Positions 5,992 to 43,199 of a DNA stretch of 44,752 nt are shown here, one piece after another. Numbering within the stretch: the first letter of the stretch is position 1; every line of letters starts with the position of its first letter. The notes under the pieces are model-generated. The model made no database searches, had not been told where the DNA came from, and saw only the letters and a list, made by a program, of their open reading frames with translations. This DNA is from a virus. Location: IMG/VR virus record IMGVR_UViG_3300017971_000410, positions 1 through 44,752 of that record; one strand, written 5' to 3'. The position numbers and the translations under genes were made by a program.

Positions 5992-6026
5992 ATTATAATA
6001 TACCTTAGTACTAATTTAAAAAGAAA

Positions 6027-6065
6027 GTTTAATATAGGCTAAATGAGGCTGTTTAAAGCTATGTT
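6027..6065 (-). promoter_or_regulatory. 39-bp promoter-like repeat, copy 1
   Basis: This segment matches 16779-16817 at 38 of 39 positions. Read on the minus strand it contains AGCCTCATTTAGCCTATATT, with TATATT as a possible -10. It ends 35 bp before the ATG at 5991; the other copy ends 30 bp before its gene. The conserved position, orientation and intergenic location argue for a phage promoter or regulator site. Confidence 0.55.
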
Positions 6066-6078
6066 CTAAAGCTTTCTA

Positions 6079-8104: not shown

Positions 8105-8834
8105 TCGATAGCTCCTTTGCCAGATTCGGATAATACTTTCTAAGGAGATTCTCCAGCCTTTCAGAAACCGCTATCTCACCCAGTCGATTTCTATCTAGCC
8201 CATGCGTTTCCCAACTGATTTTATTCATTGGATTGAAATGTAGGACCTTGACCGGTTTCTCAGATCGATTATATCTCTTGACGAACCCACTGCAACCGAC
8301 ATTATACGTATTATCGACTACGGTAACCCTATCCCTAAATTTCTTCGATTTTAAAACTCTATTAATCGTTGGTTCTTCTTTCTCTTCCCCTTCCGATAAT
8401 AAAAATTCTATTACATTAACTATATCCCTTGCCGAATACCTCCAAAAAATACTCCCTCCGTTAAACTTAGAGGTTGAGTATGTTGTAATACCAACATCCT
8501 TAATATCAGGTGGGCAATCGATTTGGTTATTCTCCCAACAATCCAAATCATGTGACCATATGATTTCTCCCGCTAATCGGAACTCATTCTTATTAGAGAA
8601 TATATGATCGACGCCAAACATCTTACTCCCAGTCCAGCAATGCTTGTTTGGTTGCCATTTTACAGTCTTTACACCCATAAATTCAAAATCAAAATTAGCG
8701 AGAATAAGGATAGAATCTGGATTCCATTCAAGGTCAAGACTATTTTCTATTTGAGCTTTCAGGATAGTTTCAACACTTTCCTGCCCGTACTTGTGGTGTC
8801 CTTTGCGGGCATTGGCAACCATGAAATTAATCAT
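8037..8834 (-). CDS. Putative GT-A-fold glycosyltransferase
   Basis: 265 residues. Features that fit a phage GT-A-like enzyme are a long N-terminal alpha/beta part ending in LILANFDFEF, the acidic HDLD motif (DxD-like) and the FNGGSIFWRYSARDI segment, which resembles the acceptor-side G-x-I/F-x-R motif. It lies at the downstream end of a block of glycosyltransferases. The start is an ATG at 8834; MVANARKG at 8822 is an alternative. Sugar donor and acceptor are unknown. The call is moderate because no single diagnostic motif is present. Confidence 0.45.
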   Translation of the reverse strand: MINFMVANARKGHHKYGQESVETILKAQIENSLDLEWNPDSILILANFDFEFMGVKTVKWQPNKHCWTGSKMFGVDHIFSNKNEFRLAGEIIWSHDLDCWENNQIDCPPDIKDVGITTYSTSKFNGGSIFWRYSARDIVNVIEFLLSEGEEKEEPTINRVLKSKKFRDRVTVVDNTYNVGCSGFVKRYNRSEKPVKVLHFNPMNKISWETHGLDRNRLGEIAVSERLENLLRKYYPNLAKELSSEVVSSCGRDTVPVQDLPAQGS

Positions 8835-16748: not shown

Positions 16749-16778
16749 ATACTTCTTAATATTACCCAATAGGAGAAC

Positions 16779-16817
16779 GTTTAATATAGGCTAAATCAGG
16801 CTGTTTAAAGCTATGTT
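16779..16817 (-). promoter_or_regulatory. 39-bp promoter-like repeat, copy 2
   Basis: Identical to 6027-6065 except for one base. It is intergenic, oriented toward the 16748 start and 30 bp from it. The possible -10 TATATT lies near the gene-proximal end. A third, diverged copy stands at 36397-36428 before queD. Confidence 0.55.
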
Positions 16818-16824
16818 TTAACCA

Positions 16825-25415: not shown

Positions 25416-25481
25416 CAGCAAGATAGCCATTAAGACTTGTGCGTTGCTGGTCGGCTTGGAGGACCGATCAGCAGGTTGGCT
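25416..25481 (+). ncRNA. Type A structured RNA element, copy 1
   Basis: 66 nt starting CAGCAAGATAGCCATTAAGA. A 9-bp stem forms between GCTGGTCGG (25446-25454) and CCGATCAGC (25464-25472), with loop CTTGGAGGA; AGCCA and TGGCT can close an outer helix. Copies at 26125 and 27871 keep the first 30 nt unchanged while the stem of copy 3 differs and remains paired. It sits in the leader of the 25509 gene. Confidence 0.65.
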
Positions 25482-25508
25482 TTTAACTTTTAACAAGGGA
25501 GGTACAAA

Positions 25509-25766
25509 ATGGCATGGACACCAACAAAGTGGGCATGTGGTCACGAGGGCCACATGCAATTATACGGAAAACATTCAGCTCGGGAATCGAAGGTGGCATA
25601 TGAAGCCGGCAGGGTTTGCATGGTATGCTGGCTGATTGACGAGTGGGCCGAATCAAATGACCCGCGTTCGAAACGAGATGACCGCATGCAACTAGCGGAG
25701 AAGATAGCTGGAGGAAAAGGTATTCGGATTGATATCACAAAAGATTGCTCATATATGAGCACCTAA
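25509..25766 (+). CDS. Small zinc-ribbon-like early protein
   Basis: 85 residues. WACGHEGHMQ (C-x-H) and later GRVCMVCWL (C-x2-C) suggest a treble-clef or zinc-ribbon site. The remainder is helical and charged (DDRMQLAEKIAGGKG). AGGGAGG lies 7 bp before the ATG. It is flanked by RNA element A upstream and B downstream. Confidence 0.55.
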   Translation: MAWTPTKWACGHEGHMQLYGKHSARESKVAYEAGRVCMVCWLIDEWAESNDPRSKRDDRMQLAEKIAGGKGIRIDITKDCSYMST

Positions 25767-25773
25767 AGGTTAA

Positions 25774-25829
25774 CCTCAGTTTAAGCCCTATGGAAACATA
25801 GGGCTTATGCGGATGTTAACTCAAAACAA
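25774..25829 (+). ncRNA. Type B structured RNA element, copy 1
   Basis: CCTCAGTTTAAG precedes a 10-bp perfect stem AAGCCCTATG/CATAGGGCTT (25783-25792 with 25797-25806) capped by a GAAA tetraloop; ATGCGGATGTTAACTCAAAA follows. Copy 2 at 26479 keeps both flanks and changes the stem with pairing kept. It lies immediately after the 25766 stop and ends before the GGGGAGG of the next gene. Confidence 0.65.
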
Positions 25830-25844
25830 GGGGAGGTAGGAAAA

Positions 25845-26111
25845 ATGAAATACAAATCAAAATGCTTACAACATTTAAATGCAACGCCAAAACCTTTAGT
25901 TGAAGGATTAATTACAATTAATGCAAAATTTGAAGTAAATACAAAACAAAAACAGAGAATCATATTATTCGAAACAAAAAAAGGCGGGTACGTTCTCCCT
26001 AATGAATTTTCTGTCGTAATTTACTACCATACAAACACAATTGGATTCAATAATCTTACATATGCTAAGGCATCGGCAATTTTCTGGGCATTGGCTTCTA
26101 ATTTAGATTAA
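25845..26111 (+). CDS. Small early hypothetical protein
   Basis: 88 residues, Lys/Asn-rich with beta strands (QRIILFETKKGGYVLP, FSVVIYYHTNTIGF). GGGGAGG is upstream. More AT-rich than the preceding genes. Not recognised. Confidence 0.5.
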   Translation: MKYKSKCLQHLNATPKPLVEGLITINAKFEVNTKQKQRIILFETKKGGYVLPNEFSVVIYYHTNTIGFNNLTYAKASAIFWALASNLD

Positions 26112-26124
26112 TCTGAATCTCTAA

Positions 26125-26190
26125 CAGCAAGATAGCCATTAAGACTTGTGCGTTGCTGGTCGGCTTGGAGGACCGATCAGCGGGTTGGCT
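26125..26190 (+). ncRNA. Type A structured RNA element, copy 2
   Basis: Differs from copy 1 by one base (A to G just after the stem). The stem is 26155-26163 with 26173-26181. It begins 14 bp after the stop of the preceding gene and ends 30 bp before the next ATG. Confidence 0.65.
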
Positions 26191-26220
26191 AAAACATTTA
26201 AATAGATAGGAGGTAGGAAA

Positions 26221-26478
26221 ATGACAAATTTGCATGAATTACAAAAATCTGGAATTAACATAGAATTTGGCAGGTGGTCCGGACAACACCCAGGCCTAAA
26301 CAAATCATTTCTGGTTCATAATTCCACTGCAAAAAAAATAATGGAATATCATAATTCTGGCTACAAAATTATAGTCGGTAACTCGCCATATGGACCTGGA
26401 ATTATGATATCTCAATTCAATTCCCGATATCATGGGCATTCAATCAGAACTATCAGAGCAGTCAAAAAATCAAGCTAG
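26221..26478 (+). CDS. Small early hypothetical protein
   Basis: 85 residues (MTNLHELQKSGINIEFGRW start), with GTAGGAAA-AGGAGG leader identical in style to its neighbours. Gly/Ser/His-rich with a basic C-terminus (HGHSIRTIRAVKKSS). Not recognised. Confidence 0.5.
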   Translation: MTNLHELQKSGINIEFGRWSGQHPGLNKSFLVHNSTAKKIMEYHNSGYKIIVGNSPYGPGIMISQFNSRYHGHSIRTIRAVKKSS

Positions 26479-26536
26479 CCTCAGTTTAAGCGCCATGCTC
26501 AGGTATGGCGCTTATGCGGATGTTAACTCAAAACAA
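26479..26536 (+). ncRNA. Type B structured RNA element, copy 2
   Basis: Same flanks as copy 1 (CCTCAGTTTAAG before, ATGCGGATGTTAACTCAAAA after). The stem is AAGCGCCATGC/GTATGGCGCTT with loop TCAG: 11 pairs including one G-U. Several stem bases differ from copy 1 on both sides, so pairing is conserved while sequence is not. Confidence 0.65.
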
Positions 26537-26550
26537 AGGGAGGTAGGAAA

Positions 26551-26772
26551 ATGACAAATTCAGAAAGACTCGAACTGGCAGAAAGAGTCAGAAAAGCAAT
26601 TGAATCAAAAAGCCTCGATCATGCCCTATTAAAAGAACGAGATGAAATCGAGCGATTCTTGAACGTTAAAGCTGATGAATTACCCATTAATGTTTTGGTT
26701 GATTGCCATGTGGCAGTAGCAAGTGACGATATGATGGAATTACATCATATCGGATATGGGGTGAGAAGATGA
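26551..26772 (+). CDS. Small helical early protein
   Basis: 73 residues, amphipathic helices (ERLELAERVRKAIESKS, LLKERDEIERFL). No domain recognised. Its stop overlaps the ATG of the 39-residue gene downstream (ATGA). Confidence 0.5.
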   Translation: MTNSERLELAERVRKAIESKSLDHALLKERDEIERFLNVKADELPINVLVDCHVAVASDDMMELHHIGYGVRR

Positions 26773-26888
26773 AAGGGGCGATCACAAAAAAGAACTTTTT
26801 CGGGATTTGGAGGGCTTTTGGATTGAAGAAAGCCATTAAGGTTCTTTTTTCCAGAAGCCCAGTGGCATTGAATTTACTGATGTTATAA
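26769..26888 (+). CDS. 39-residue basic protein, coupled
   Basis: MKGAITKKNFFGIWRAFGLK begins it, followed by KAIKVLFSRSPVALNLL. Basic and amphipathic. Its start overlaps the upstream stop, which supports translation by coupling. The function is unknown. Confidence 0.4.
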   Translation: MKGAITKKNFFGIWRAFGLKKAIKVLFSRSPVALNLLML

Positions 26889-26902
26889 GGAGGTAAAAGA
26901 AG

Positions 26903-27142
26903 ATGAAAAAAGGTCAAATGGTAAGAATTATAAGTGTACCAACCTCAACCGACGAATACTTAATAGGTCAGGCCGGTAAGATTATGAAGGTCGAAAAAGG
27001 CAAATGCACGCTTTTTCATGTCAGCATCCCAGGGCAGCATCGTAACCTGAGAATGTTTGAGGATGAAATCGAACCGGTCAGAGAAGATAGATATTTGCCA
27101 CCAAATATGCTATCAGCAATAGCTGAAATAAACGGAGGTTAA
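26903..27142 (+). CDS. Small SH3-like barrel protein
   Basis: 79 residues. The pattern GQMVRIISVP, LIGQAGKIMKVEKGKCTLFH and RMFEDEIEPV looks like a KOW/SH3-type small barrel. AAGGAGG lies 9 bp before the ATG. Nucleic-acid binding is plausible but not shown. Confidence 0.5.
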   Translation: MKKGQMVRIISVPTSTDEYLIGQAGKIMKVEKGKCTLFHVSIPGQHRNLRMFEDEIEPVREDRYLPPNMLSAIAEINGG

Positions 27143-27144
27143 AA

Positions 27145-27282
27145 ATGCGATCCTTTTTGTATGCGTTACTTAGGATTTTAAATGATCTGAATGCAGTCAA
27201 AAAAAACAAGGTAGGTCGGCGGATCGGTAGACGAGCCGCTGGCAAGGTTACACAGAAAATGATGAATAAAATTTTTAAATGA
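27145..27282 (+). CDS. 45-residue very basic protein
   Basis: MRSFLYALLRILNDLNAVKK, then KVGRRIGRRAAGKVTQKMM. It resembles short Lys/Arg-rich genes found in early or replication regions of many phages (LNAVxxGKVGRRIxRRxxGK pattern), which remain without assigned function. GGAGG is directly upstream and the next gene follows after 12 bp. Confidence 0.5.
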   Translation: MRSFLYALLRILNDLNAVKKNKVGRRIGRRAAGKVTQKMMNKIFK

Positions 27283-27294
27283 AGGGAGGTAAAT

Positions 27295-27567
27295 ATGAAA
27301 TCTGACCTACAAAGAGTATTAGAAAGCGAAGGATGGGTTGATGAATCATGGAAAACCGAGTTCATCTGTGACTACCTCGAAGAAAGAGGCCACTATGTTA
27401 ATTATTCTGATCTGTCAGAACCCGTCATCGAATTCCTGATGGGTGAAATCGGGCTTGAAAGCTATATGTATGTATCGGTCCGATATGGTTTAGAACCACT
27501 GACAGCAAAGGCAATGATCAGAGATATGCTGAAAGCCGAAAAACTAATGGAGGATAAAAATGTCTAA
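27295..27567 (+). CDS. Small acidic hypothetical protein
   Basis: 90 residues, helical (LQRVLESEGWVDESWKTEF, AKAMIRDMLKAEKLMED). No domain recognised. It overlaps the next gene by 8 bp. Confidence 0.5.
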   Translation: MKSDLQRVLESEGWVDESWKTEFICDYLEERGHYVNYSDLSEPVIEFLMGEIGLESYMYVSVRYGLEPLTAKAMIRDMLKAEKLMEDKNV

Positions 27568-27862
27568 ACCTACTTTCACCTTTAAAAAAATGATTCATAC
27601 CGGCAGGTACAAAGGCTTCGAAAAAGACTTTACCGATATAAAACTTAAAAGAAAAATCGTCGGCTACATTCGTGAAGTTGAATTTCGTAAATATAAAATT
27701 AGTTTTGCTGTTAAAAAAGAACCAACAAAAGAAGATCCTGCACCTTTCAGATGGGTCAGATTAGTTATTCAGTTTAAAACAGAAAAAGAAGCAAGAGAAT
27801 TCCTAAAAGAAAGAGCAGAAGATATCATCAATAAATATGATCTTTATTCTTTTGATGACTAA
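27560..27862 (+). CDS. Small basic hypothetical protein
   Basis: 100 residues, Lys/Arg/Phe-rich N-terminal half and a charged helix near the end (EKEAREFLKERAEDIINK). Beta strands in the middle (KYKISFAVKKE, WVRLVIQFKT). Not recognised. RNA element A copy 3 starts 8 bp after its stop. Confidence 0.5.
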   Translation: MSKPTFTFKKMIHTGRYKGFEKDFTDIKLKRKIVGYIREVEFRKYKISFAVKKEPTKEDPAPFRWVRLVIQFKTEKEAREFLKERAEDIINKYDLYSFDD

Positions 27863-27870
27863 AAATCAAA

Positions 27871-27937
27871 CAGCAAGATAGCCATTAAGACTTGTGCGTT
27901 GCCAGTGAGCTTAGGAGGACTTACTGGCGGGTTGGCT
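27871..27937 (+). ncRNA. Type A structured RNA element, copy 3 (covarying stem)
   Basis: The first 30 nt equal copies 1 and 2. The stem is GCCAGTGAG (27901-27909) with CTTACTGGC (27920-27928), different from the others at several positions yet fully paired counting G-U. The loop CTTAGGAGGA keeps the GGAGGA core. This is the copy that demonstrates compensatory change. The next gene begins 41 bp later. Confidence 0.7.
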
Positions 27938-27978: not shown

Positions 27979-28509
27979 ATGGATATGAATAAGTTATGGG
28001 AAGAAAACGAAAAAACAATCAATTACCTATCAGGTTCTTTTTGGAACAGCTACCCAAAGATAGATAAAGAAGAGTATCGGGATAATGCTATTGACTGCTT
28101 CATCAGATGCTGTGAAAGATATCAAGAAGAAAGCAATAATGGAGCCTGTTTCAATACCTACCTACACACCAGCATTAAGCAGTATTTCAAAGGGATGATC
28201 GTCAACCACAGCCAGCAGCAGCATGATATAACAGAGTACAGTGAAGAACAGGCAATAAACAAGCTATCGCCAGAAAAAATGGTAGCTTTTAAGAATCAAC
28301 TTGAATGCCTGAGCCAAGATGCTATCAACGTCATTAACCACATCCTTTTCGCCGCAGATGAAGTGAATAATACCGGCCGCTATGCAGCGACTCATGCCAG
28401 CATAACGAAAGGAGAGCTTAGAAAGAAGCTTCAAAAGAAGTGGTTCGGCAGAGGTGGGCAAAAAAGGGTAAATAAAGCATTTAAGGAAATCAAATCAGCA
28501 ATGGCTTAA
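27979..28509 (+). CDS. Sigma-70-like protein (region 2-like)
   Basis: 176 residues. The segment AIDCFIRCCERYQEESNNGA then CFNTYLHTSIKQYFKGMI resembles sigma70 region 2 (core binding, F-x-TYxxxxI motif). LECLSQDAINVINHIL recalls the start of region 4, but no clear region 4 HTH is complete. AGGAGG is upstream. It could redirect host RNA polymerase to phage promoters such as the shared motifs in this window, or be a sigma-derived anti-factor. Moderate confidence. Confidence 0.5.
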   Translation: MDMNKLWEENEKTINYLSGSFWNSYPKIDKEEYRDNAIDCFIRCCERYQEESNNGACFNTYLHTSIKQYFKGMIVNHSQQQHDITEYSEEQAINKLSPEKMVAFKNQLECLSQDAINVINHILFAADEVNNTGRYAATHASITKGELRKKLQKKWFGRGGQKRVNKAFKEIKSAMA

Positions 28510-28557: not shown

Positions 28558-30591
28558 ATGTCTGATAAAAGACAAATATATCAGATGATCGATGAAAGTG
28601 ATGAATTCACCATTGGCTGTCTTCTTGAGCTTCATTCAAGGCAGACATGGGATGAGCAGTACAGTCGATCAACCGATGAAGCAAACAGTGTAGGATTTAA
28701 TAAAATCGATGCTTCCCCAATGTCTAACATCGCAGAATTCTATATTCAAAAAGAATTCATAACTCCAAAACAGATCGCCTTTGTAAAGAAGATAATCAAG
28801 AAGTATCATGGGCAATTAAGCACTAACATCACACCAAGACCAATCAAAAGATTACCGCAGCAGCCCCAAGCAGACGAGGAATACAAAAAAGTCGAAAAGA
28901 TGAATGGAAATAAATTGGCCATCATCTTCCGTTTCCCTCGTGGTGATAAGAGATTCAGGGAAACGGTTGCAGATATCAAAAGCAAGGTTGCAGGTCGACG
29001 GTGGGAGCCGGAGCTACCAGGCAAACCCTGGACTTGCCCTCTATCTATTGAAAATATTGAGGCTCTTAATAATCTGGGATTTGAGATCCCAAATGACCTT
29101 AAAGAATGGCAGCAGCAGATGACCGCACCAATCGATGATATCCCAGAGGTCGATATCCCAGGTTTAAAAGGAGAGTTATATCCCTTTCAGAAGAAGGGGG
29201 TTGAGTGGATTGAAAGCAGAAACGGCCGGGCACTAATTGCAGACGAGATGGGTCTGGGGAAAACAGTTCAAGCTCTGGCTTGGCTACAACTCCACCCTGA
29301 AGCTCGCCCTGCCCTTATTATCTGCCCTGCATCAGTAAAGCTGAATTGGCATAGGGAGGCACATCGTTGGCTTGATAAACCAAATGTCACCGTCTTATAC
29401 GGTAGATATGATAAAGATAAACCTCTCAAAATAGATGATGATTCAATCATCATCTGCAATTACGATATACTACCTAACCAAACAATCCGCGAAAAAAGAA
29501 CCGGTATGAAAGATAGAATCGTTGAGCTGCCAAACACAGGCTGGGCTGATGCGCTAAAGAAAGTAGGTTTAAAAGTAATCGTGACGGATGAATCTCACTA
29601 TACCAAAAACAGCAAAGCCCTAAGAACAAAGGCGGTAAAAAAGCTTGCTAAATATGCAGACAATATGATCGCCTTATCAGGGACGCCAATCACGAATCGA
29701 CCAGTTGAATTCTTCAATACGATCAATATGGTCAACCCTAGGATATTCCCTAAATTCTGGGATTACGCTAAGCGATATTGCGATGCAAAGAATAATGGAT
29801 TCGGTTGGGATTTTAGCGGAGCAACTAATACAAAGGAGCTACATGATAAACTAACAAAAACTTGCATGATCCGCCGCAAAAAGGCTGAGGTCTTGCCTGA
29901 TCTACCAAAAAAGGTTAGATCAGTAGTGCCGCTTGAGATTGATAACAGAGAGGAATATAACAGAGCAGCTGCAAATATTATCAGATGGATCGAAGAAAAT
30001 GAAGGCTTGGAGCAAGCAAAAAAGGCGAAGCAAGCCGAGGTATTGGTTGAATTTGAAAAACTGAAACAGCTTGCTGTGAAAGGCAAACTTGATCAGGCCA
30101 TCAAGTGGATTGAGGACTTTATTGACATAGATGGTAAATTAGTTGTATTCGCCGATCACCAATTCACAATCAATGCCCTGATGAAAAAGTTCGGCAAAAA
30201 GGCAGTGAAGATTGATGGCTCCACCCCTCAGAAAGAAAGGCAAAATGTAGTTGATCGATTTCAGAATGATGACAGCATCCGCCTATTTATTGGAAGTAAG
30301 GCCGCGAAGGAAGGGATCACATTAACTGCATCGAGCAATACTTGTTTTCTTGAACTTTGGTGGGTCCCCGGCGATCACAGCCAAGCTGAAGACAGAGTCC
30401 ATAGAATCGGCCAGGAAGCTGATTCCGTTAATGCATGGTACCTAATCGCAGAGAGAACAATCGAGGAAGGGCTTGCCACTATCCTCGATGAAAAGCAAAA
30501 GGTATTATCGTCGGTTCTTGACGGAGAAGATACTGACGATTCATCAGTTTTAATCGAACTTTTAAATCATTACAAGAAAGGAGGTTATTAA
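28558..30591 (+). CDS. SNF2-family helicase with HARP-like N-terminus
   Basis: 677 residues. Residues ~120-190 (LAIIFRFPRGDKRFRETVAD, WTCPLSIENIEALNNLGF) look like the HARP domain of SMARCAL1-type annealing helicases. The helicase core has ADEMGLGKT (~228-236, motif I), TDESH (~343, DExx box), LSGTPITN (III), VVFADHQFTINAL (IV) and EDRVHRIGQ (VI), all intact. It likely remodels replication forks or recombination intermediates. The AAAGGAGG ribosome site and a TATAAT at 28531 precede it. Confidence 0.85.
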   Translation: MSDKRQIYQMIDESDEFTIGCLLELHSRQTWDEQYSRSTDEANSVGFNKIDASPMSNIAEFYIQKEFITPKQIAFVKKIIKKYHGQLSTNITPRPIKRLPQQPQADEEYKKVEKMNGNKLAIIFRFPRGDKRFRETVADIKSKVAGRRWEPELPGKPWTCPLSIENIEALNNLGFEIPNDLKEWQQQMTAPIDDIPEVDIPGLKGELYPFQKKGVEWIESRNGRALIADEMGLGKTVQALAWLQLHPEARPALIICPASVKLNWHREAHRWLDKPNVTVLYGRYDKDKPLKIDDDSIIICNYDILPNQTIREKRTGMKDRIVELPNTGWADALKKVGLKVIVTDESHYTKNSKALRTKAVKKLAKYADNMIALSGTPITNRPVEFFNTINMVNPRIFPKFWDYAKRYCDAKNNGFGWDFSGATNTKELHDKLTKTCMIRRKKAEVLPDLPKKVRSVVPLEIDNREEYNRAAANIIRWIEENEGLEQAKKAKQAEVLVEFEKLKQLAVKGKLDQAIKWIEDFIDIDGKLVVFADHQFTINALMKKFGKKAVKIDGSTPQKERQNVVDRFQNDDSIRLFIGSKAAKEGITLTASSNTCFLELWWVPGDHSQAEDRVHRIGQEADSVNAWYLIAERTIEEGLATILDEKQKVLSSVLDGEDTDDSSVLIELLNHYKKGGY

Positions 30592-30812: not shown

Positions 30813-30981
30813 AAAAGCACCAGTTAAGCAAAAAATAAACCGCTGGTGGCATTATAATCTAACAAGAGACAATCTATTAGAGTTCGGGATATATAGGGAT
30901 TGGATGATACCCTATATATCCTTTGATAAAGCGATGAAGTTAGCTGGAGAAAAATTTACAGACAAAAGGAGCAACCAATGA
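30775..30981 (+). CDS. Small basic protein overlapping its neighbours
   Basis: 68 residues, MIRVRKAAIKRIRKAPVKQK start, then WWHYNLTRDNLLEFGIYRDW. I used the ATG at 30775 rather than earlier in-frame codons because those lie deep in the previous gene. It overlaps that gene by 38 bp and the pentapeptide gene by 4 bp (ATGA). Unknown. Confidence 0.45.
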   Translation: MIRVRKAAIKRIRKAPVKQKINRWWHYNLTRDNLLEFGIYRDWMIPYISFDKAMKLAGEKFTDKRSNQ

Positions 30982-32165
30982 AAATATTCAGTGTAAAAAA
31001 TGATCTTATTTTTATTTATCAAGATAATGAACCAACCCTGAAAAGGACAATTGAAAATGCTGTCAAATCTGGCATTAGCTTAAATTATGCCGAGCTGAAT
31101 AATGCCGAGCTGAATGGTGCCAAGCTGAATGGTGCCAAGCTGAATAATGCCGAGCTGAGTAATGCCAAGCTGAATGGTGCCAAGCTGAATAATGCCAAGC
31201 TGAATGATGCCGATCTGAATGATGCCGAGCTGAATTATGCCGATCTGAATGATGCCGAGCTGAATGATGCCGATCTGAATGATGCCGATCTGAATGGTGC
31301 CGATCTGAATGGTGCCGAGCTGAATGGTGCCAATCTGAATTATGCCAAGCTGAATTATGCCAAGATGAATGGTGCCAAGCTGAATTATGCCAATCTGAAT
31401 TATGCCAAGCTGAATGATGCCAAGCTGAATGATGCCAAGCTGAACGGTGCCAAGCTGAATGGTGCCAAGATGAATAATGCCAAGCTGAATGATGCCGAGC
31501 TGAATGATGCCGAGCTGAATGATGCCAAGCTGAATGGTGCCTGGATGAATGATGCCAAGATGAATAATGCCAAGCTGAATGATGCCGAGCTGAATGGTGC
31601 CGAGCTGAATGATGCCAAGCTGAATGGTGCCAAGATGAATGATGCCAAGATGAATGATGCCGAGCTGAATTATGCCGAGCTGAATGGTGCCGAGCTGAAT
31701 GATGCCAAGCTGAATTATGCCAAGCTGAATGATGCCAAGCTGAATTATGCCAAGCTGAATTATGCCAAGATGAATGATGCCGAGCTGAATGGTGCCGAGC
31801 TGAATGGTGCCAATCTGAATGGTGCCGAGGGGTTATTAGATCCATCTAAATGGCTGGAAGAAAACTTCAGATATATTTCAGATGGATTAATCACCTACAA
31901 AGATGTTCAATCCACTTTTCACAAAAAACCTGAATCATGGAAGATTGAACCTGGAAGCTATTTAGCAGAAATATGCAATCCAAACAGAACAACTGATTGT
32001 GGCAGTGGCGTTAATTTTGCAACATTGGATTGGCTGAGGAAATACTCACACCATGAAATATGGGAATGCATTATCGAATGGAAAGACCTCCCTGGAATCA
32101 TTGTACCGTATAATACAGATGGAAAGGCAAGATGTCATCGCCTTAGATTAATTAGAAAAATATAA
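30978..32165 (+). CDS. Pentapeptide-repeat protein
   Basis: 395 residues. An N-terminal ~36-residue segment is followed by 49 tandem A(K/E/D/N)LN(G/N/D/Y) pentapeptides (~residues 38-282), which fold as a right-handed quadrilateral beta-helix. The C-terminal ~110 residues (GLLDPSKWLEENFRYI, SYLAEICNPNRTTDCGSG, RCHRLRLIRKI) form a separate domain. DNA-mimic pentapeptide proteins inhibit gyrase, but this one has a variable mix of Lys and acidic residues, so charge mimicry is uncertain. The gene lies directly before primase. Confidence 0.75.
   Translation: MKIFSVKNDLIFIYQDNEPTLKRTIENAVKSGISLNYAELNNAELNGAKLNGAKLNNAELSNAKLNGAKLNNAKLNDADLNDAELNYADLNDAELNDADLNDADLNGADLNGAELNGANLNYAKLNYAKMNGAKLNYANLNYAKLNDAKLNDAKLNGAKLNGAKMNNAKLNDAELNDAELNDAKLNGAWMNDAKMNNAKLNDAELNGAELNDAKLNGAKMNDAKMNDAELNYAELNGAELNDAKLNYAKLNDAKLNYAKLNYAKMNDAELNGAELNGANLNGAEGLLDPSKWLEENFRYISDGLITYKDVQSTFHKKPESWKIEPGSYLAEICNPNRTTDCGSGVNFATLDWLRKYSHHEIWECIIEWKDLPGIIVPYNTDGKARCHRLRLIRKI
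31089..31823 (+). repeat. 49 tandem 15-bp units (pentapeptide minisatellite)
   Basis: Exactly 49 units without a single indel, consensus GCCRAKCTGAATDRT. Nearly all variation is in codon 2 (AAG, GAG, GAT, AAT) and codon 5 (GGT, GAT, AAT, TAT), plus CTG to ATG changes. The near identity of units predicts frequent repeat-number change by slippage or recombination. Confidence 0.9.
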
Positions 32166-36548: not shown

Positions 36549-36917
36549 ATGCTATCAATCACAAAACTATTTCGATTCTCAGCCAGCCATCAACTCTATA
36601 ACCATAACGGGAAGTGCCATAGGTTGCATGGTCACTCATACCTGCTTGAGATAACGATTGAAGGAAGACGGAAGATAAATGATACAAGAGCTCCCGACTA
36701 TGGCATGATTATGGATTTTGGTAAGCTGAAAAAAATTGTAAATGATCATGTGATAGACAAGCTGGATCATTCACATCTCAATGACTTCGTATTCACTCCA
36801 ACCGCAGAAAATCTTACTTTTTGGATCGCTAATCAACTGTATGCACATATCGACGGATTAAAAAGAGTGAGGCTATGGGAAGAGATGGGATCGGCTTGCT
36901 GCACATGGGAAAGCTAA
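36549..36917 (+). CDS. queD: 6-carboxy-5,6,7,8-tetrahydropterin synthase QueD
   Basis: 122 residues, the usual QueD length. FSASHQL (His14), LHGHSY (His27, His29) give the zinc site; Cys23 in NGKCHR is the catalytic Cys; MIMDFGKLK, LDHSHLND and PTAENL complete the family pattern, and the conserved Glu is in RLWEEMGSACC. It converts 7,8-dihydroneopterin triphosphate to 6-carboxytetrahydropterin, step two of 7-deazaguanine synthesis. First gene of the modification operon. Confidence 0.9.
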   Translation: MLSITKLFRFSASHQLYNHNGKCHRLHGHSYLLEITIEGRRKINDTRAPDYGMIMDFGKLKKIVNDHVIDKLDHSHLNDFVFTPTAENLTFWIANQLYAHIDGLKRVRLWEEMGSACCTWES

Positions 36918-36923
36918 AATATT

Positions 36924-37415
36924 ATGGTTGCTGAGAAGAAATATAAAGTGATCAAATTAGAAAGTGATAGATCACCATGCAATCATTGTAGATTCAAGGA
37001 TATCGATAAGAATATAACTACATGCCTCTCATGTAAGAAGAGAGAGAAATATGCAGGAACCATAGATCCTGAAAACATCTGCCGCCGTTGGGTATCGTCC
37101 TATAGTGGAAGATGGGAAAAAGAAGAGGAAGAAAATAGAAAAATAGGGCGAAAGAAGATAGTGGTTGATCGGATATTAAAAGGTAGAGTGATTGATTTTT
37201 CAAGCGAGTATTGTGATGAGAAGTTTGATATGGAATTGAGCATTATCATTGACGATACAAGATTTAAGGGTAGAAAAATAGCCTCTTATCGCTACCAATT
37301 GATAAGAGCAATTAAATCTCGCCTCCGTCTTAATCACGCAACAATTGCCAGGTGCTTAGGGATGAAGTATCATACCGTGAATAATATAATGGCAAGGGAT
37401 AGGATTACTAAGTGA
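36924..37415 (+). CDS. Zinc-finger plus DnaA-type HTH protein
   Basis: 163 residues. The N-terminal module Cys19, Cys22, Cys34, Cys37 (PCNHCRFKDIDK) matches the 7868-8104 protein. A charged middle (GRWEKEEEENRKIGRKK) leads to a C-terminal helical domain (YQLIRAIKSRLRLNHATIAR, LGMKYHTVNNIMAR) that resembles the DnaA domain IV HTH. A DNA-binding regulator or a factor tying modification to DNA is possible. It lies between queD and queE. Confidence 0.55.
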   Translation: MVAEKKYKVIKLESDRSPCNHCRFKDIDKNITTCLSCKKREKYAGTIDPENICRRWVSSYSGRWEKEEEENRKIGRKKIVVDRILKGRVIDFSSEYCDEKFDMELSIIIDDTRFKGRKIASYRYQLIRAIKSRLRLNHATIARCLGMKYHTVNNIMARDRITK

Positions 37416-37609
37416 AAATCTATTTTGCGGGCAATCTTGCTGATAATACAAGAATTAAAAAAGCCCATCTATTAGTTAAGTATAGATTATTGAGTTATTA
37501 CTTCATTAAATATGACCAATTCAAAGTTAAAGAAGAATTTGAATTGATTTCAAAAAGGAATCAAAAATGCAGCAAAAAATCGCAATCAACGAAATCTTCA
37601 CCAGCATAG
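37412..37609 (+). CDS. Small MKIYxAG-type protein 1, GTG start
   Basis: 65 residues starting MKIYFAGNLADNTRIKKAHL and containing YRLLSYYFIKY. The same pattern (MxIYxAG then LxSxYY) occurs in the products of 43409 and 43603. The N-terminus looks like the first strand of a nucleoside-2-deoxyribosyltransferase-like Rossmann fold, but the protein is too short for a full domain. The GTG overlaps the upstream stop. Its tail overlaps queE by 43 bp. Confidence 0.45.
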   Translation: MKIYFAGNLADNTRIKKAHLLVKYRLLSYYFIKYDQFKVKEEFELISKRNQKCSKKSQSTKSSPA

Positions 37610-38256
37610 ACGGTGAAGTGAATAGATATGGTCAGGGTGGGTTGACAACCTTCATCCGTTTTTCTGGCTGTAGCCTCCGCTGCCCGTATTGCGACACAAA
37701 GCAGGCGCAGAACAAATTGTCTGGCGCCCTGATGACAATTGATGAAATAATTCAGCAAATCAAAACGCCAAGGGTGACGATAACGGGTGGGGAGCCGCTT
37801 GAGCAGATTGAAGGTTTTAAAACTCTGATGTACCACCTCCTATCTCCTTTTGATTCGGAATACCTTGTATCAATAGAAACCAATGGTACAATTGAAATCC
37901 CTTTTGATGAATTTCTGTATGCAGGAAGACGGATTGGTTGGGTAATCGATTACAAGCTTGATTATGATACCATTTCACCATATCGGAATTTTAAGAATGC
38001 TGGTAAGGGTGATTGGATTAAGATTATTATTGGTAATAACGATAGAAAAGATCCAATTCCTAAAACAGTCAAGGATTATCAGCTTGCCAAAGATGCTTTC
38101 AATAACTTTAGAAAGCTTGGTACGAAGGCCAGATTCGCCATCGGTTTCGTTAATCCTAAAAGAGACGCAAAGCATGTGGTTAAATGGTTAGTGGATGATC
38201 AGATATTTGATATCCATTTAAACATCCAGCTTCATAAATTTATTGATATGAAGTGA
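37567..38256 (+). CDS. queE: 7-carboxy-7-deazaguanine synthase QueE
   Basis: 229 residues. SGCSLRCPYCDT carries the radical SAM cluster Cys35, Cys39 and Cys42; VTITGGEPL binds SAM; the N-terminal INEIFTSIDGE and the terminal IQLHKFID are family marks. It rearranges 6-carboxytetrahydropterin into 7-carboxy-7-deazaguanine (CDG). The length and Cys spacing are normal, so it should be active. Confidence 0.9.
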   Translation: MQQKIAINEIFTSIDGEVNRYGQGGLTTFIRFSGCSLRCPYCDTKQAQNKLSGALMTIDEIIQQIKTPRVTITGGEPLEQIEGFKTLMYHLLSPFDSEYLVSIETNGTIEIPFDEFLYAGRRIGWVIDYKLDYDTISPYRNFKNAGKGDWIKIIIGNNDRKDPIPKTVKDYQLAKDAFNNFRKLGTKARFAIGFVNPKRDAKHVVKWLVDDQIFDIHLNIQLHKFIDMK

Positions 38257-38296
38257 AAAAAGTGAAAAAAGTCAAATAAAAAATGGACAAAACTCT

Positions 38297-38302
38297 TATA
38301 AT
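38297..38302 (+). promoter_or_regulatory. Possible -10 box before the folE part of the operon
   Basis: CTCTTATAATATATC contains TATAAT at 38297-38302 in the 100-bp gap after queE. It resembles the 36504 motif in its CTTATAATA core. No convincing -35 was found. Confidence 0.3.
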
Positions 38303-38356
38303 ATATCAAATGGCAAACAAACAAGGCCAAAAATTTTAAACAAAGGGAGAAAGAAA

Positions 38357-38893
38357 ATGAAAAAGAAAGACGTAACAAAGGAAAAACTGGTAAAGGTGGT
38401 TGAAGAAATGAATACCATACTTGAGCTTGAACCGCCTATCGAAACTGAAGGTAAAGGGATCACAAAAGCCAAGCTGATTGACGAAATCGAAGAAACCGCT
38501 GAACACTGCTTCAAGCCCGGTGATGTGATCAGCCCCGAAACCCAGGAAGTTTTGAAGGCCCTTGAAATCCCGTTTCCTGATCAAGCTGATGAAGTGGACG
38601 AATCCCAGGATGAAGAAGCCGCCGAACCACCCAAAACTGAGAAAAAGGAAAAGGTGAAGAAAGAGAAGAAAGAGAAGGTAAAGAAAACAAACAGACTGAT
38701 GGCGACCATCGATGCCGTAGCTGTCCTTGGGCTGGACGCCGAAGATGATGAACTTGCAAAAAAAGCCAGTGAGATCTATCTCAAAAACGGCGGTAAGGAT
38801 GTCGGTGATAAGGAAACTAAGCAAGCCATGTGGTGGGTGAAGAACTTCCGTCAAGTCACCGCCGCAATGAAGGAGCGTGGAGTAACTGTTTAG
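38357..38893 (+). CDS. Hypothetical protein with Lys/Glu linker
   Basis: 178 residues. An N-terminal helical domain (KLVKVVEEMNTILELEPPI, KAKLIDEIEETAEHC) is joined by a Lys/Glu-rich linker (KTEKKEKVKKEKKEKVKKT) to a C-terminal domain (MATIDAVAVLGLDAEDDEL, MWWVKNFRQVTAAMKERGV). Such two-domain proteins with basic linkers occur near phage replication and recombination genes. Function unknown. GGGAG precedes the ATG. Confidence 0.55.
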   Translation: MKKKDVTKEKLVKVVEEMNTILELEPPIETEGKGITKAKLIDEIEETAEHCFKPGDVISPETQEVLKALEIPFPDQADEVDESQDEEAAEPPKTEKKEKVKKEKKEKVKKTNRLMATIDAVAVLGLDAEDDELAKKASEIYLKNGGKDVGDKETKQAMWWVKNFRQVTAAMKERGVTV

Positions 38894-38907
38894 CAAAGGT
38901 TGATAAA

Positions 38908-39465
38908 TTGAATTTGATTAAAATAGAAAGTATGTGGAAAGATCTTCTCTCGGAAATCGGTGACGATCCTTCGAGAGAAGGTCTTATTCGTACCCCTTAT
39001 CGTATTGCGAAAGCATGGTGGGAATTGTTTTCAGGGTACCGCGATAAGCCCCCAAAGATTACCACTTTCAAAGAACAGTGCAAAGGTTTGATCATAGACA
39101 GAGGGTACTTCTTTTCATTCTGTGAACATCATGTCTTACCATTCTTCGGCGATTATTATTTTGGTTACATACCAAGAAATAACATGATAATCGGCGCGAG
39201 TAAGATAGGTAGAACTATTGATCATTTTTCTGCCAGACTTCAAGTGGCCGAGAGGATATGCTGTCAAGTCGCCGATTATATAGATAGTGAGGCAGATACG
39301 AACGGTATAATATTGATTATGACTGGGCGGCATCTTTGTAAAGAAATGCGCGGTATCAAAAAATACGATTCTATATTTGAAGCTAGTGAAGCTAGAGGTT
39401 GTTTTCTGAAAAATACCAATGGATGTAAAGACGAGTTCCTCCTTAGAATTAATTCAAAACTATAA
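38908..39465 (+). CDS. folE: GTP cyclohydrolase I FolE
   Basis: 185 residues from a TTG with AAAGG 8 bp upstream; an ATG at 38932 is the alternative. Zinc ligands are Cys72 and His75 in FCEHHVLPF and Cys144 in GRHLCKEMRG. IIGASKIGR and FSARLQVAER are the conserved core. It converts GTP to dihydroneopterin triphosphate, the first step of the queD-queE pathway. A phage copy boosts precursor supply for DNA modification. The preceding gene ends 14 bp upstream. Confidence 0.9.
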   Translation: MNLIKIESMWKDLLSEIGDDPSREGLIRTPYRIAKAWWELFSGYRDKPPKITTFKEQCKGLIIDRGYFFSFCEHHVLPFFGDYYFGYIPRNNMIIGASKIGRTIDHFSARLQVAERICCQVADYIDSEADTNGIILIMTGRHLCKEMRGIKKYDSIFEASEARGCFLKNTNGCKDEFLLRINSKL

Positions 39466-39470
39466 CCACT

Positions 39471-39809
39471 ATGCCATTTAAAACATTCATCGTCATAAAG
39501 ACACAATTTGAAGCCATACACAATTGGCCTGATTGTGGTATTGAATCTGTAAGCTACCTGCGGAATCCACATAGACACATTTTTCATGTTGAGATGAAGT
39601 GGATTGTTGAGGGTTTAAATCGTGATATTGAATTCATCGACCAAAAGCATAAAGTTGATGATTTTATCCATAAAAAATTGGCATATAAAAATATTGGTGC
39701 AATGAGTTGTGAGATGATCGCGTCAAGATTGATGACAAAATTCAATGCTCGCTTCGTGAGTGTTTTTGAAGATGGCGAAAATGGTGCAGAGATATGTATG
39801 ACTACATAA
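39471..39809 (+). CDS. Second PTPS/QueD-fold protein
   Basis: 112 residues. FEAIHNW (His17) and NPHRHIFHVE (His34, His36) match the three zinc-binding His of the 6-pyruvoyl-tetrahydropterin-synthase fold. SCEMIAS and FEDGENGAEI replace the catalytic region of QueD, and no Cys sits at the QueD catalytic position. A function different from QueD is therefore likely: another pterin or deazaguanine step, for example decarboxylation or hydrolysis of an intermediate. Follows folE by 5 bp. Confidence 0.6.
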   Translation: MPFKTFIVIKTQFEAIHNWPDCGIESVSYLRNPHRHIFHVEMKWIVEGLNRDIEFIDQKHKVDDFIHKKLAYKNIGAMSCEMIASRLMTKFNARFVSVFEDGENGAEICMTT

Positions 39810-41089
39810 TTATCGACCCTGCCTCAACTGAATTCAATCGAGGTAGTTTTTGTTACCTTCCATATATACTGTACTCTGCACTTACTAAGAGTGGTGCAAA
39901 GGTAGCAATATATGAAAATTTTACTGCCGCAGACATTGATTGCCTCCCTAAAGCAAGCCGTTATCTTATATCAATATGGTCTTATCCACAGATCGATACC
40001 GCACTTGTCATAGATCGTTTCCTGGAAGGAAATAAATCATTTTTTGGTTACTTTCCCTTGATAGATCATTTGAAGTTGGATGAATTTATTTTCCCAGATC
40101 ATATGATACTGTCTGGAATAGAAAACTACCCACTATATTATAGCGACTTCAACTTCATCCTACTCTCAGATTGCGACATGCACTTGAAAAAATATAGTGG
40201 ACAAGTCTATCCTTTGTTTACATCATACGGATGCCCTAATGGTTGTTCGTTCTGCCCCAGTACAGTCAATTGTGAAAAGCGCCGTATCATCATACCGCTT
40301 GAAAAGGTAGAAAAAATCATCTACTACTGCAATGGAATAGGAATCCATAACATTCATTTTACTGATGAGGATTTCTTCTTCAATATCGACAGGGCGCATT
40401 CGATACTTAAAATATTTGAAAAGCTGGATACTGATTTCCAGTTGATATCACTTGGTAGTGCTGTAAAGGTACGGTCATATATAAAAAAGTATGGCGAGAA
40501 TACGTTGGCAGCATCAGGTATGAAACTGATTGAGGTTGGCCTCGAGACAGCCGATTCAGATTTGGCCACCTCCATGCATAAACCTGGGCATAAGAGTTGT
40601 ACATGGCTTGCCGAAAATGCTAAGACACCAATATTCTGGTTGACCATGACCTTCTTTCCTGGAGAGACGATACACTCACTCAATCTTACTGGAAGATTTC
40701 TAAAGAAATATGGCTATAAGCAAGACGAACTCTACGGTAGAATAAGAACGAATAGTACAGTTGGAGGGTTGGGACAATTTTTTCAGTTCTATCACGGTAC
40801 GCCATTTTATTCAGACAAGGATTTTCTAGGTATGTCTCTGAGTGATTGCCCTATTCGTCTTCTACCAAGCTTTGTTCCCTATTCTTTCCTTGGATCAAAA
40901 ATAGAGTCCATTGGTGATGCCAGTGATGCAATTGACTGGTTTAAGTTGTATAACCTCCACCCTGAGATGATAAAGCTCACAAAAGGGAATTGTATAGATG
41001 AATATGTCAACAAATATAAGGGCTATATGAGGGTAGCTGACATACTTACCTATCTTGCAATCTGCGCAAGGCTTGGAGTTATAATATGA
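39794..41089 (+). CDS. Radical SAM enzyme of the DNA-modification locus
   Basis: 431 residues. Residues 1-130 form an alpha/beta domain where B12-binding radical SAM proteins carry cobalamin, but no DxHxxG motif is present. The cluster motif is GCPNGCSFCPS (Cys147, Cys151, Cys154). IHFTDEDFFFNIDRA, LIEVGLETADSDLA and FWLTMTFFPGET follow as in the B12-type radical SAM/elongator fold. It probably performs a C-C, C-S or methyl-transfer type step on the modified base or sugar. Overlaps its neighbours by 16 and 4 bp. Confidence 0.75.
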   Translation: MYDYIIIDPASTEFNRGSFCYLPYILYSALTKSGAKVAIYENFTAADIDCLPKASRYLISIWSYPQIDTALVIDRFLEGNKSFFGYFPLIDHLKLDEFIFPDHMILSGIENYPLYYSDFNFILLSDCDMHLKKYSGQVYPLFTSYGCPNGCSFCPSTVNCEKRRIIIPLEKVEKIIYYCNGIGIHNIHFTDEDFFFNIDRAHSILKIFEKLDTDFQLISLGSAVKVRSYIKKYGENTLAASGMKLIEVGLETADSDLATSMHKPGHKSCTWLAENAKTPIFWLTMTFFPGETIHSLNLTGRFLKKYGYKQDELYGRIRTNSTVGGLGQFFQFYHGTPFYSDKDFLGMSLSDCPIRLLPSFVPYSFLGSKIESIGDASDAIDWFKLYNLHPEMIKLTKGNCIDEYVNKYKGYMRVADILTYLAICARLGVII

Positions 41090-42117
41090 CCATTTGGAAT
41101 GTCCCAATAGAAAGTCTTGAGGAAAGGTACAGCTCGCAATGGGGACGCTGGTTTCATATTGAATTCACAAGGCTTGGCATCGAATATAGAGCCATTCCTG
41201 GCATTCGTCTGACAGACAAAATAACCAAAGGTTCATTTCTTGATATATGTGGAACAAATTATTTCAAAGCGAACCAACTCAAGGTAATATCTTCATTGAT
41301 GTTTGAAGGGCAAGTAAAAGACGGTGATATTTTTCTGTTTCATGACCTATGGTTCCCAGGCATTGAGATGTTGGCTTATATGAGAGATGGGCTTGGAATC
41401 GATTTCAAGATATGCGGAATACTTCATGCAGGCACTTATGATCCGTATGATTTTCTTTCAAAGAAAGGAATGGCGAAGTGGGGGGAGAAATTAGAGGAAT
41501 CATGGTTCAGAATAGCTGATATGATATTTGTTGCTACTCAATGGCACCGACATCTATTATACAGTAACCGGATCGTAGAATGGGATAAAATAAAAGTGAC
41601 AGGCTTACCTATTTATTTCGACTTTGCCCCTAATGAATTACCAGAAAAAGAAAATATTATCGTGTTCCCGCATAGGTTAGATGAAGAAAAAAATCCTCAA
41701 TTGTTCGATTTATTTCAGACAAGATTTCAAGAAGACAAATCAATCAAGGACTCATGGCAATTTTTAAAAACAATGGAGCATTGGAAGGGCAAAAAAGGTT
41801 ATTATGATATGCTATCAAGATCGAAAATAGTTGTCAGCTTCGCCGACCAGGAAACGTGGGGAATAGCTATGCAAGAAGCCCTCTTTCTTGGTTGCTTCCC
41901 AGTCATCCCAGATCGCCTGAGTTACACTGAAATGTATGAGCCTATGTTTAGATACTCTTCCTATGCTGAAGCCATGACTCTGATTAAATATGGCATGGAG
42001 AAGTATGAATCAAAAGAGGTACAAGATACAATAAGGCTAAATAAAGAAAAGCTTATAGGCGAAGGAAAAGATGCAATAAGGAGGATGATATGCGAGATGG
42101 AAATGATGAGAAAATAG
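41086..42117 (+). CDS. GT4-like glycosyltransferase of the DNA-modification locus
   Basis: 343 residues. The N-terminal half (VPIESLEERYSSQWGRWF, FLFHDLWFPG, GILHAGTYDPYDFL) and the C-terminal GT-B half (FPHRLDEEKNPQLF, SFADQETWGIAMQEALFLG) fit retaining GT4 enzymes; the E-x7-E motif is in ETWGIAMQEA. It lies between the radical SAM gene and dpdA with overlaps on both sides, so glycosylation of the modified DNA base is the favoured, but unproven, role. Confidence 0.7.
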   Translation: MTIWNVPIESLEERYSSQWGRWFHIEFTRLGIEYRAIPGIRLTDKITKGSFLDICGTNYFKANQLKVISSLMFEGQVKDGDIFLFHDLWFPGIEMLAYMRDGLGIDFKICGILHAGTYDPYDFLSKKGMAKWGEKLEESWFRIADMIFVATQWHRHLLYSNRIVEWDKIKVTGLPIYFDFAPNELPEKENIIVFPHRLDEEKNPQLFDLFQTRFQEDKSIKDSWQFLKTMEHWKGKKGYYDMLSRSKIVVSFADQETWGIAMQEALFLGCFPVIPDRLSYTEMYEPMFRYSSYAEAMTLIKYGMEKYESKEVQDTIRLNKEKLIGEGKDAIRRMICEMEMMRK

Positions 42118-43199
42118 ACCTGTTTCTCGACTGCGGAGCGGTGTCAATTTATAACAAGTTGGTGCGGAAAGGTGGTAGAACAGAAAGTGGCGTCCATACA
42201 GGCGCATATTTCAAAGACCGCAAGCATGATGATTTCAGCTACATACACACCAAAGAGTACCAGGAGTATAGAGACAGTTACATTGAATTTATCAAGAAAA
42301 ATAAGAAACACCTAACCGTATACTCCAACCTTGATGTGATCAATAATGCAGAGCTGACATGGGAAAATCAAAAGATAATGGAAGGCGAAGGATTATCGCC
42401 TATTCCAGTCTACCACATCAGCAACAAGCCTGGTGATACTAAGTGGTTAAAAAAGTACATTGACAAAGGGTATGATTACATCGCACTTGGCGGTGGTTAT
42501 CCAAACCCGCCAAAGGAGACATTCACAATCTATGATCGAATATGGAACGATATACTGACCGATGACAAAGGTATGCCAATCGTCAAAGTTCACGGCTATG
42601 CAGTCACTAGCCTTAAAACTATGTTAAGATACCCTTGGTATTCGGTTGACTCAACCAGTTGGGTTATGACTGCAAGAATGGGAAGTATTTATATTCCAAA
42701 ATCTAAAAATGGAAAATATATCTATGATATTGATCCATTTAAAATATTAGTTTCTAATCGCAGCCCAAGACTATGTGACAGCCAATGGCATATTGCACAC
42801 ATAAGCCGGCAGAATAAAGAACTTCATAAATATATATTGGATTATTTTGACTTCAAAGGATTCATACTAGGTGAAAGCGATTTTAAGGTCGTTGACGACA
42901 GTTACAAGCCAGACAAGAATGAAAGATTGATGCCAAACGATGTCATAAAAAAATGGAGGATGATGGGAGACAAATCAAATGAGATCATAAAAGATAAATT
43001 CAATGTTCTCCCTAGCGATGGAGAAAAAATGGTTGAAATAATAAAAAGCCCAGGGCTCTGCAATAGTTATATATCAAGAGATGAGGCTTGTATCATATAC
43101 TTCACCAATCTTCAAAATGCACTGCCTGAATGGCCCACTCCATTTAAACTAAAAAAGAAAACAAAATCAAAAGGATTATTTAAGGTATACAAGACATGA
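42090..43199 (+). CDS. dpdA: DpdA-like DNA 7-deazaguanine transglycosylase
   Basis: 369 residues. FLDCGAVSIYNKL, YIEFIKKN, TVYSNLDVINNAELTW and YDYIALGGGYPNP follow the TIM-barrel pattern of tRNA-guanine transglycosylase relatives, of the kind found in phage DpdA proteins. DpdA exchanges guanine in DNA for a 7-deazaguanine base. The catalytic Asp is probably within the SNLDVI strand or a later one; I cannot assign it firmly. Overlaps the glycosyltransferase by 28 bp. Confidence 0.7.
   Translation: MRDGNDEKIDLFLDCGAVSIYNKLVRKGGRTESGVHTGAYFKDRKHDDFSYIHTKEYQEYRDSYIEFIKKNKKHLTVYSNLDVINNAELTWENQKIMEGEGLSPIPVYHISNKPGDTKWLKKYIDKGYDYIALGGGYPNPPKETFTIYDRIWNDILTDDKGMPIVKVHGYAVTSLKTMLRYPWYSVDSTSWVMTARMGSIYIPKSKNGKYIYDIDPFKILVSNRSPRLCDSQWHIAHISRQNKELHKYILDYFDFKGFILGESDFKVVDDSYKPDKNERLMPNDVIKKWRMMGDKSNEIIKDKFNVLPSDGEKMVEIIKSPGLCNSYISRDEACIIYFTNLQNALPEWPTPFKLKKKTKSKGLFKVYKT

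Follow-up and report, generated by a model that had tools for sequence, protein, structure and literature searches.

Three intergenic copies of a candidate pistol-class ribozyme without the P1 hairpin in the putative early region of a phage

To our knowledge, the biological role of the pistol and hammerhead ribozymes associated with phages is poorly understood. The closest described relative of the intergenic element reported here, which we call type A, is the pistol ribozyme (RF02679; Weinberg et al., 2015; Harris et al., 2015, PMC4604425), numbered below after Ren et al. as summarised in PMC6154101. The length of the G53-U54 junction is strictly conserved in the pistol, and disruption of P1 greatly cuts the activity of the Lysinibacillus sphaericus representative (PMC4604425). 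Crystal work on the pistol and the pseudoknot-containing hammerhead revealed that the A-rich linker docks on the P1 helix via A-minor contacts (PMC11300833). The pseudoknot-containing hammerhead has the same helix connectivity as the pistol (PMC11300833) but requires a CUGANGA/GAA core, which type A does not contain. Type A shares with the pistol the helices P2 and P3, the UUA-purine-G and GCGU segments, the G33-C41 pair, G40, the strict GU junction and a location near phage genes, and has a candidate pseudoknot to the strand joining P2 and P3. It differs by having no P1 hairpin, a linker cut to AU(A), a candidate pseudoknot of 5 rather than 6 bp, a longer P3 (11 bp), a GGAGGA loop, and A34 and U39, the latter also found in L210 and L235. 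Judging from its sequence, type A is quite probably a pistol-class self-cleaving ribozyme that has lost P1 and all but a remnant of the A-rich linker, with predicted cleavage at a G/U step. Because these two parts are absent, it is a variant of the class and not a standard member.

The window, by which we mean the whole stretch of DNA that was analysed, consists of the 44,752 bases of IMG/VR virus record IMGVR_UViG_3300017971_000410; its left arm, on the minus strand, encodes terminase and structural proteins and its right arm, on the plus strand, helicase, primase and others. The run of small ORFs that opens the right arm gave no Pfam match at family cut-offs. An earlier note on this DNA had described a 66-67-nt intergenic element in three copies, standing before three different early genes, and we located these copies on the plus strand at 25416-25482, 26125-26191 and 27871-27937. 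They lie 27, 30 and 42 nt upstream of plus-strand ORFs of 85, 85 and 176 aa, respectively (25509-25766, 26221-26478 and 27979-28509), each having a Shine-Dalgarno sequence of its own. The three copies agree in strand and in lying between a stop and a start, every one being found 9-20 nt past a stop codon and 27-42 nt ahead of an ORF start. We take the downstream genes to be early from where they lie: they diverge from the terminase and structural arm and closely precede the helicase and primase genes. The 176-aa ORF separates copy 3 from a gene for an SNF2-type helicase (28558-30591, plus strand), which served as the anchor for finding related phages, and it has a distant homologue in one of them, L005, at the same place upstream of the helicase (24% identity, E 2e-6).

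Copies 1 and 2 differ by a single base over 66 nt (98% identity), whereas copy 3 is identical to them over the first 32 nt and then carries a different stem, its divergence being confined to P3, including one additional loop base, and the P3 flanks. A 26-nt type A probe had exactly three matches in the window against none expected in shuffles, even with three mismatches, so the identity of the first 32 nt is not due to chance. The earlier note had put this invariant 5' part at 30 nt and the stem at 9 bp. The first is present in all copies and slightly longer than stated, and the second, P3, has two sequence versions, both paired as claimed (33 of 33 stem cells across the three copies), with a length of 11 bp owing to two further closing pairs (U.G, and U.G or U-A). 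The GGAGGA-containing loop, also described there, is the same over both versions of P3 and is not a pistol feature. In copy 1, the P3 strands are at 25444-25454 and 25464-25474 and the GGAGGA-bearing loop at 25455-25463; copy 2 has the same anatomy. P3 contains four double-compensatory pairs and two one-sided changes, and this signal is lost when the partner strand is slid by 1-3 columns. In a shuffle control limited by having three sequences, 8 of 500 shuffles reached the observed value. The note called such compensatory change strong evidence for a selected RNA structure; three copies alone would be weak covariation evidence, and the case rests on cross-detection with the pistols of unrelated phages.

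Our analysis added two further helices to this picture, together with the pistol identity. The invariant 5-bp helix AGCCA/UGGCU (P2; 25425-25429 with 25477-25481 in copy 1) spans from the invariant core to the end of the element. A candidate pseudoknot GCAAG/CUUGU (25418-25422 and 25436-25440 in copy 1), with 5 bp including one G.U, is in the right place and invariant among copies, the chance of a 5-bp partner within 12 nt being about 13%. GCAAG joins P2 via a 2-nt linker (AU), and its partner sits between P2 and P3. Nearest-neighbour folding, from which the pseudoknot is excluded, favours alternatives about 3 kcal/mol below P2 plus P3.

Several other identities were considered and rejected. 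Type A has no CUGANGA ... GAA hammerhead core, and in the window a hammerhead descriptor found nothing and no Rfam hammerhead match was obtained. A tRNA-like reading was likewise discarded. A terminator scan flagged 25464-25479, which overlaps copy 1, but the flagged stem, different and weaker, is internal to the element, and the other two copies were left unflagged.

In an Rfam search at relaxed thresholds, Pistol was the top family for all three copies, with 25.3, 24.0 and 20.6 bits (E 3e-4 to 3.5e-3 for the record). These scores are below the gathering cut-off of 34.5 bits, for a model that includes the P1 and linker absent from the copies; for calibration, ordinary phage pistols reach 49-76 bits and divergent ones 30-38. 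The alignment reads AUA-GCCA-UUAAG-N6-GCGU-P3-GU-UGGC, so that UUA, A32, G33, G40-C41-G42-U43, P2 and P3 all have their counterparts. The catalytic and active-site nucleotides (purine 32, the G33-C41 pair, G40 and G42) are present within UUAAG-N6-GCGU in every copy, and the strict 2-nt G53-U54 junction between P3 and P2 is likewise kept in all three. A descriptor of this core (P2/UUARG/N6/GCGU/P3/2-nt junction) retrieved the window copies only from 1.06 Mb of phage DNA and gave no match in three equally large sets made by first-order Markov shuffling.

The earlier note had proposed a covariance-model search of phage metagenomes. Run on phage contigs, with ordinary pistols for comparison gathered by pattern scans of viral contigs, such models cross-detect type A and pistols. 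A core model built from 10 canonical phage pistols without their P1 and run on 0.84 Mb scored the window copies at 23.9, 21.4 and 20.6 bits, directly after the true pistols of L187 and L186 and ahead of a next match at 14.2. Conversely, a model trained on the window copies recovered the pistols of L217, L234, L235 and L233 (E 0.0016-0.018). The idea of a selected RNA structure, possibly a processing site, thus finds support in a pistol core, which suggests that type A is probably itself the processing activity. An exact 28-nt type A search of viral contigs returned nothing, blastn of type A and of the L238a pistol described below against named phages gave no match, a first gapped pattern had one match (L008) in which P2 and P3 are unpaired, and a scan of genome contigs had six, none with the P2/P3 fold. 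We consider the matches of these two pattern scans to be chance.

Upstream of CAGCAAG, the three copies have nothing in common that could form P1. An ATC/GAT mini-P1, using an upstream ATC found in all copies, was rejected, since it would consume a G needed for the pseudoknot. The intact pistols that we compared carry a P1 whose loop forms the pseudoknot, mostly followed by an A-rich linker, the exceptions without P1 being the window copies and one unrelated case, L238a. Between the pseudoknot strand and CCA (or its equivalent), most pistols have 13-15 nt, L232 has 11 and L238b has 8, against 4 in the window copies and 2 in L238a. A joint loss of P1 and linker would be structurally coherent, because the linker makes A-minor contacts with P1. 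Other departures from the standard architecture were seen among the collected pistols. Those at L233:7070-7166 and L234:11555-11653 have weak P1 pairing and an extra hairpin between pseudoknot strand and P2, with the pseudoknot partner 36-38 nt upstream, and a pistol-like RNA at L218:4085-4165, missed by Rfam in its own record, has P1 but essentially no A-rich linker.

L238a lies at 8391-8446 of IMGVR_UViG_3300042988_001027 (L238) and begins three bases past the stop codon of a 232-aa ORF ending at 8387. Its sequence, G-GCCCGG-G-GCCA-UUAGG-CCGGGC-GCGU, includes no P1-forming segment, and its Rfam score of 29.9 bits, over model positions 24-68 and hence without P1, is also under the 34.5-bit cut-off. 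Like type A, it has a short linker (1 nt), a pseudoknot strand adjoining P2 and a place just after a stop codon; unlike type A, it has a perfect 6-bp, all-G-C pseudoknot, UUAGG, an 8-bp P3 and no GGAGGA. Of the five pseudoknot pairs that it shares with the window copies, two are A-U there and C-G in L238a, a two-sided change that speaks for the pseudoknot in the P1-less subtype, two families being too few for statistics. The evidence for this subtype thus comes from one virus plus one unrelated case. A second pistol in the same contig, L238b, 2.3 kb downstream, scores above the cut-off (35.8 bits) and follows a stop codon and precedes the start of ORF 10781. Tandem pistols also occur in L190 (3360-3425 and 3817-3882) and L210; the L190 copies and L238b each lie between a stop and the next start codon, a placement like that of type A.

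On our analysis, the chief doubt about type A would concern its activity, given the harm done by P1 disruption in the L. sphaericus pistol. The element could be a decayed pistol, dead or very slow after the loss of P1 and retained as a stable hairpin or protein-binding site, a history that would also fit its sub-threshold Rfam scores and the retention of a GGAGGA loop foreign to pistols. We judge this unlikely, since all three copies keep the checked catalytic positions and the 2-nt GU junction intact while their P3 varies with compensation, and since the independent P1-less pistol, L238a, retains the same core. Considerably less probable is a non-ribozyme cis-regulatory leader, in which the GGAGGA hairpin might, for instance, recruit ribosomes or be bound by a CsrA-like protein. 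Every copy does present GGAGGA in the loop of a strong stem despite the differing stem sequence, and a GGAGGA segment with complementary arms also occurs just after hammerheads in L017 and L023, but such a leader leaves unexplained both the match to the pistol core, which is outside the hairpin, and the cross-detection of pistols, and the downstream genes already have Shine-Dalgarno sequences of their own. A recently copied repeat with no role as RNA, for instance a site of recombination or of protein binding to DNA, would account for the near-identity of copies 1 and 2 but is hardly credible for an element whose third copy has diverged only in P3 and flanks, with compensation, whose core matches pistols, and whose strand and stop-to-start placement never vary.

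The reading of type A as a pistol variant can be set beside the ribozymes found when contigs encoding relatives of the 28558-30591 helicase, a comparison set picked via this gene, were searched. Type III hammerheads are present in L005, L007, L028 (two), L036, L017 (two), L023 (two) and L049, a hammerhead descriptor giving clean type III structures in L005, L007, L028 and L036. Type II hammerheads exceed the Rfam cut-off in L010 and L025, as does twister-P5 in L009. All counted ribozymes are upstream of the helicase and on its strand, with downstream and opposite-strand space searched in only part of the records and loci. They mostly stand between a stop and a start codon, shortly ahead of the latter; for the second L017 copy and those of L023 and L049, the start codon that follows is 44-55 nt away or less clear. 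Weaker hammerhead matches in L038 and L042 (E 0.004-0.026), those of L042 on the other strand, were left uncounted. Like type A, the type III hammerheads lie in intergenic gaps ahead of the helicase and on its strand, with a gene immediately following, and some contigs have two copies; but they have the CUGANGA/GAA core, belong to another ribozyme class and have no sequence in common with type A. No type A homologue was found in 38 terminase-relative records and 66 helicase-relative loci, nor did Rfam report a pistol at E <= 0.05 in any of 50 helicase-relative records. The ribozymes upstream of the helicase, set beside type A, suggest that these phages use interchangeable ribozymes to divide their early transcripts. 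By eye, a probable second type III hammerhead with extra pairing is visible at L005:1078-1146 (GUGUC...CUGAAGA...GAAACACU), where Rfam reported none. In the hammerheads at L017:7337-7410 and L023:4953-5030, the 3' strand of stem III can alternatively pair with a downstream repeat, forming a hairpin with GGAGGA in its loop that is reminiscent of type A.

Other elements occupy similar gaps. A different intergenic hairpin, type B, is interleaved with type A at 25768-25823 and 26472-26530 (plus strand) and also occurs at L005:1602-1660 and at about L004:100-160. It is a long hairpin in which covarying stems flank an internal-loop motif, CUCA(R)U/(Y)GGAU, it folds strongly (z -7.3, -4.9 and -2.9), and it lies just ahead of a ribosome-binding site. 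Type B had no Rfam match worth the name and was found only in the window and L004/L005, three further matches in a viral scan lacking its fold and looking like chance; it is a candidate new ribozyme or processing site. L007, which also has a hammerhead, contains a repeated intergenic sequence, type C, at 3993-4055 and 5093-5147 (UUAAYCCCUGAACCAA-stem-GAAGUUGAGUGGUUAA). Elsewhere in the window, a 48-nt repeat (94% identical) falls between genes at two places on the late, minus-strand arm (6022-6069 and 16774-16821) and may mark late regulatory sites. PTPS/QueD-like, radical SAM and queuine tRNA-ribosyltransferase-like genes at 36549-43199 suggest a 7-deazaguanine modification pathway for DNA or tRNA, and a long array of 15-nt repeats at 30978-32165 encodes a pentapeptide-repeat protein.

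A model based on these data is that the type A copies, once transcribed, would cut their own RNA between the G and U of the P3/P2 junction, at 25475/25476, 26184/26185 and 27931/27932 in copies 1, 2 and 3. Intercistronic self-cleavage would split a polycistronic early mRNA into units: the 5' piece, with the 11-bp P3 hairpin at its end, would carry a terminal 2',3'-cyclic phosphate, and the 3' piece would start with a 5'-OH at UUGGC..., just ahead of the ribosome-binding site of the next gene. Its purpose would probably be to uncouple the stability and translation of adjacent early genes. That this region of related phages holds several ribozyme classes, each lying after a stop codon and before the ribosome-binding site that follows, argues that cleavage itself is selected. 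A bolder extension, which we hold only tentatively and consider doubtful, is that the gaps of early operons are slots for exchangeable pistol, type III hammerhead, type II hammerhead and twister ribozymes, that type B (window and L005) and type C (L007) are new self-cleaving classes, and that the P1-less pistol is a minimal subclass. A pistol without P1 and linker would be a smaller catalytic unit than the crystallised pistols, and Rfam's pistol model misses such members. The intercistronic slot is a rational place to seek new ribozyme classes.
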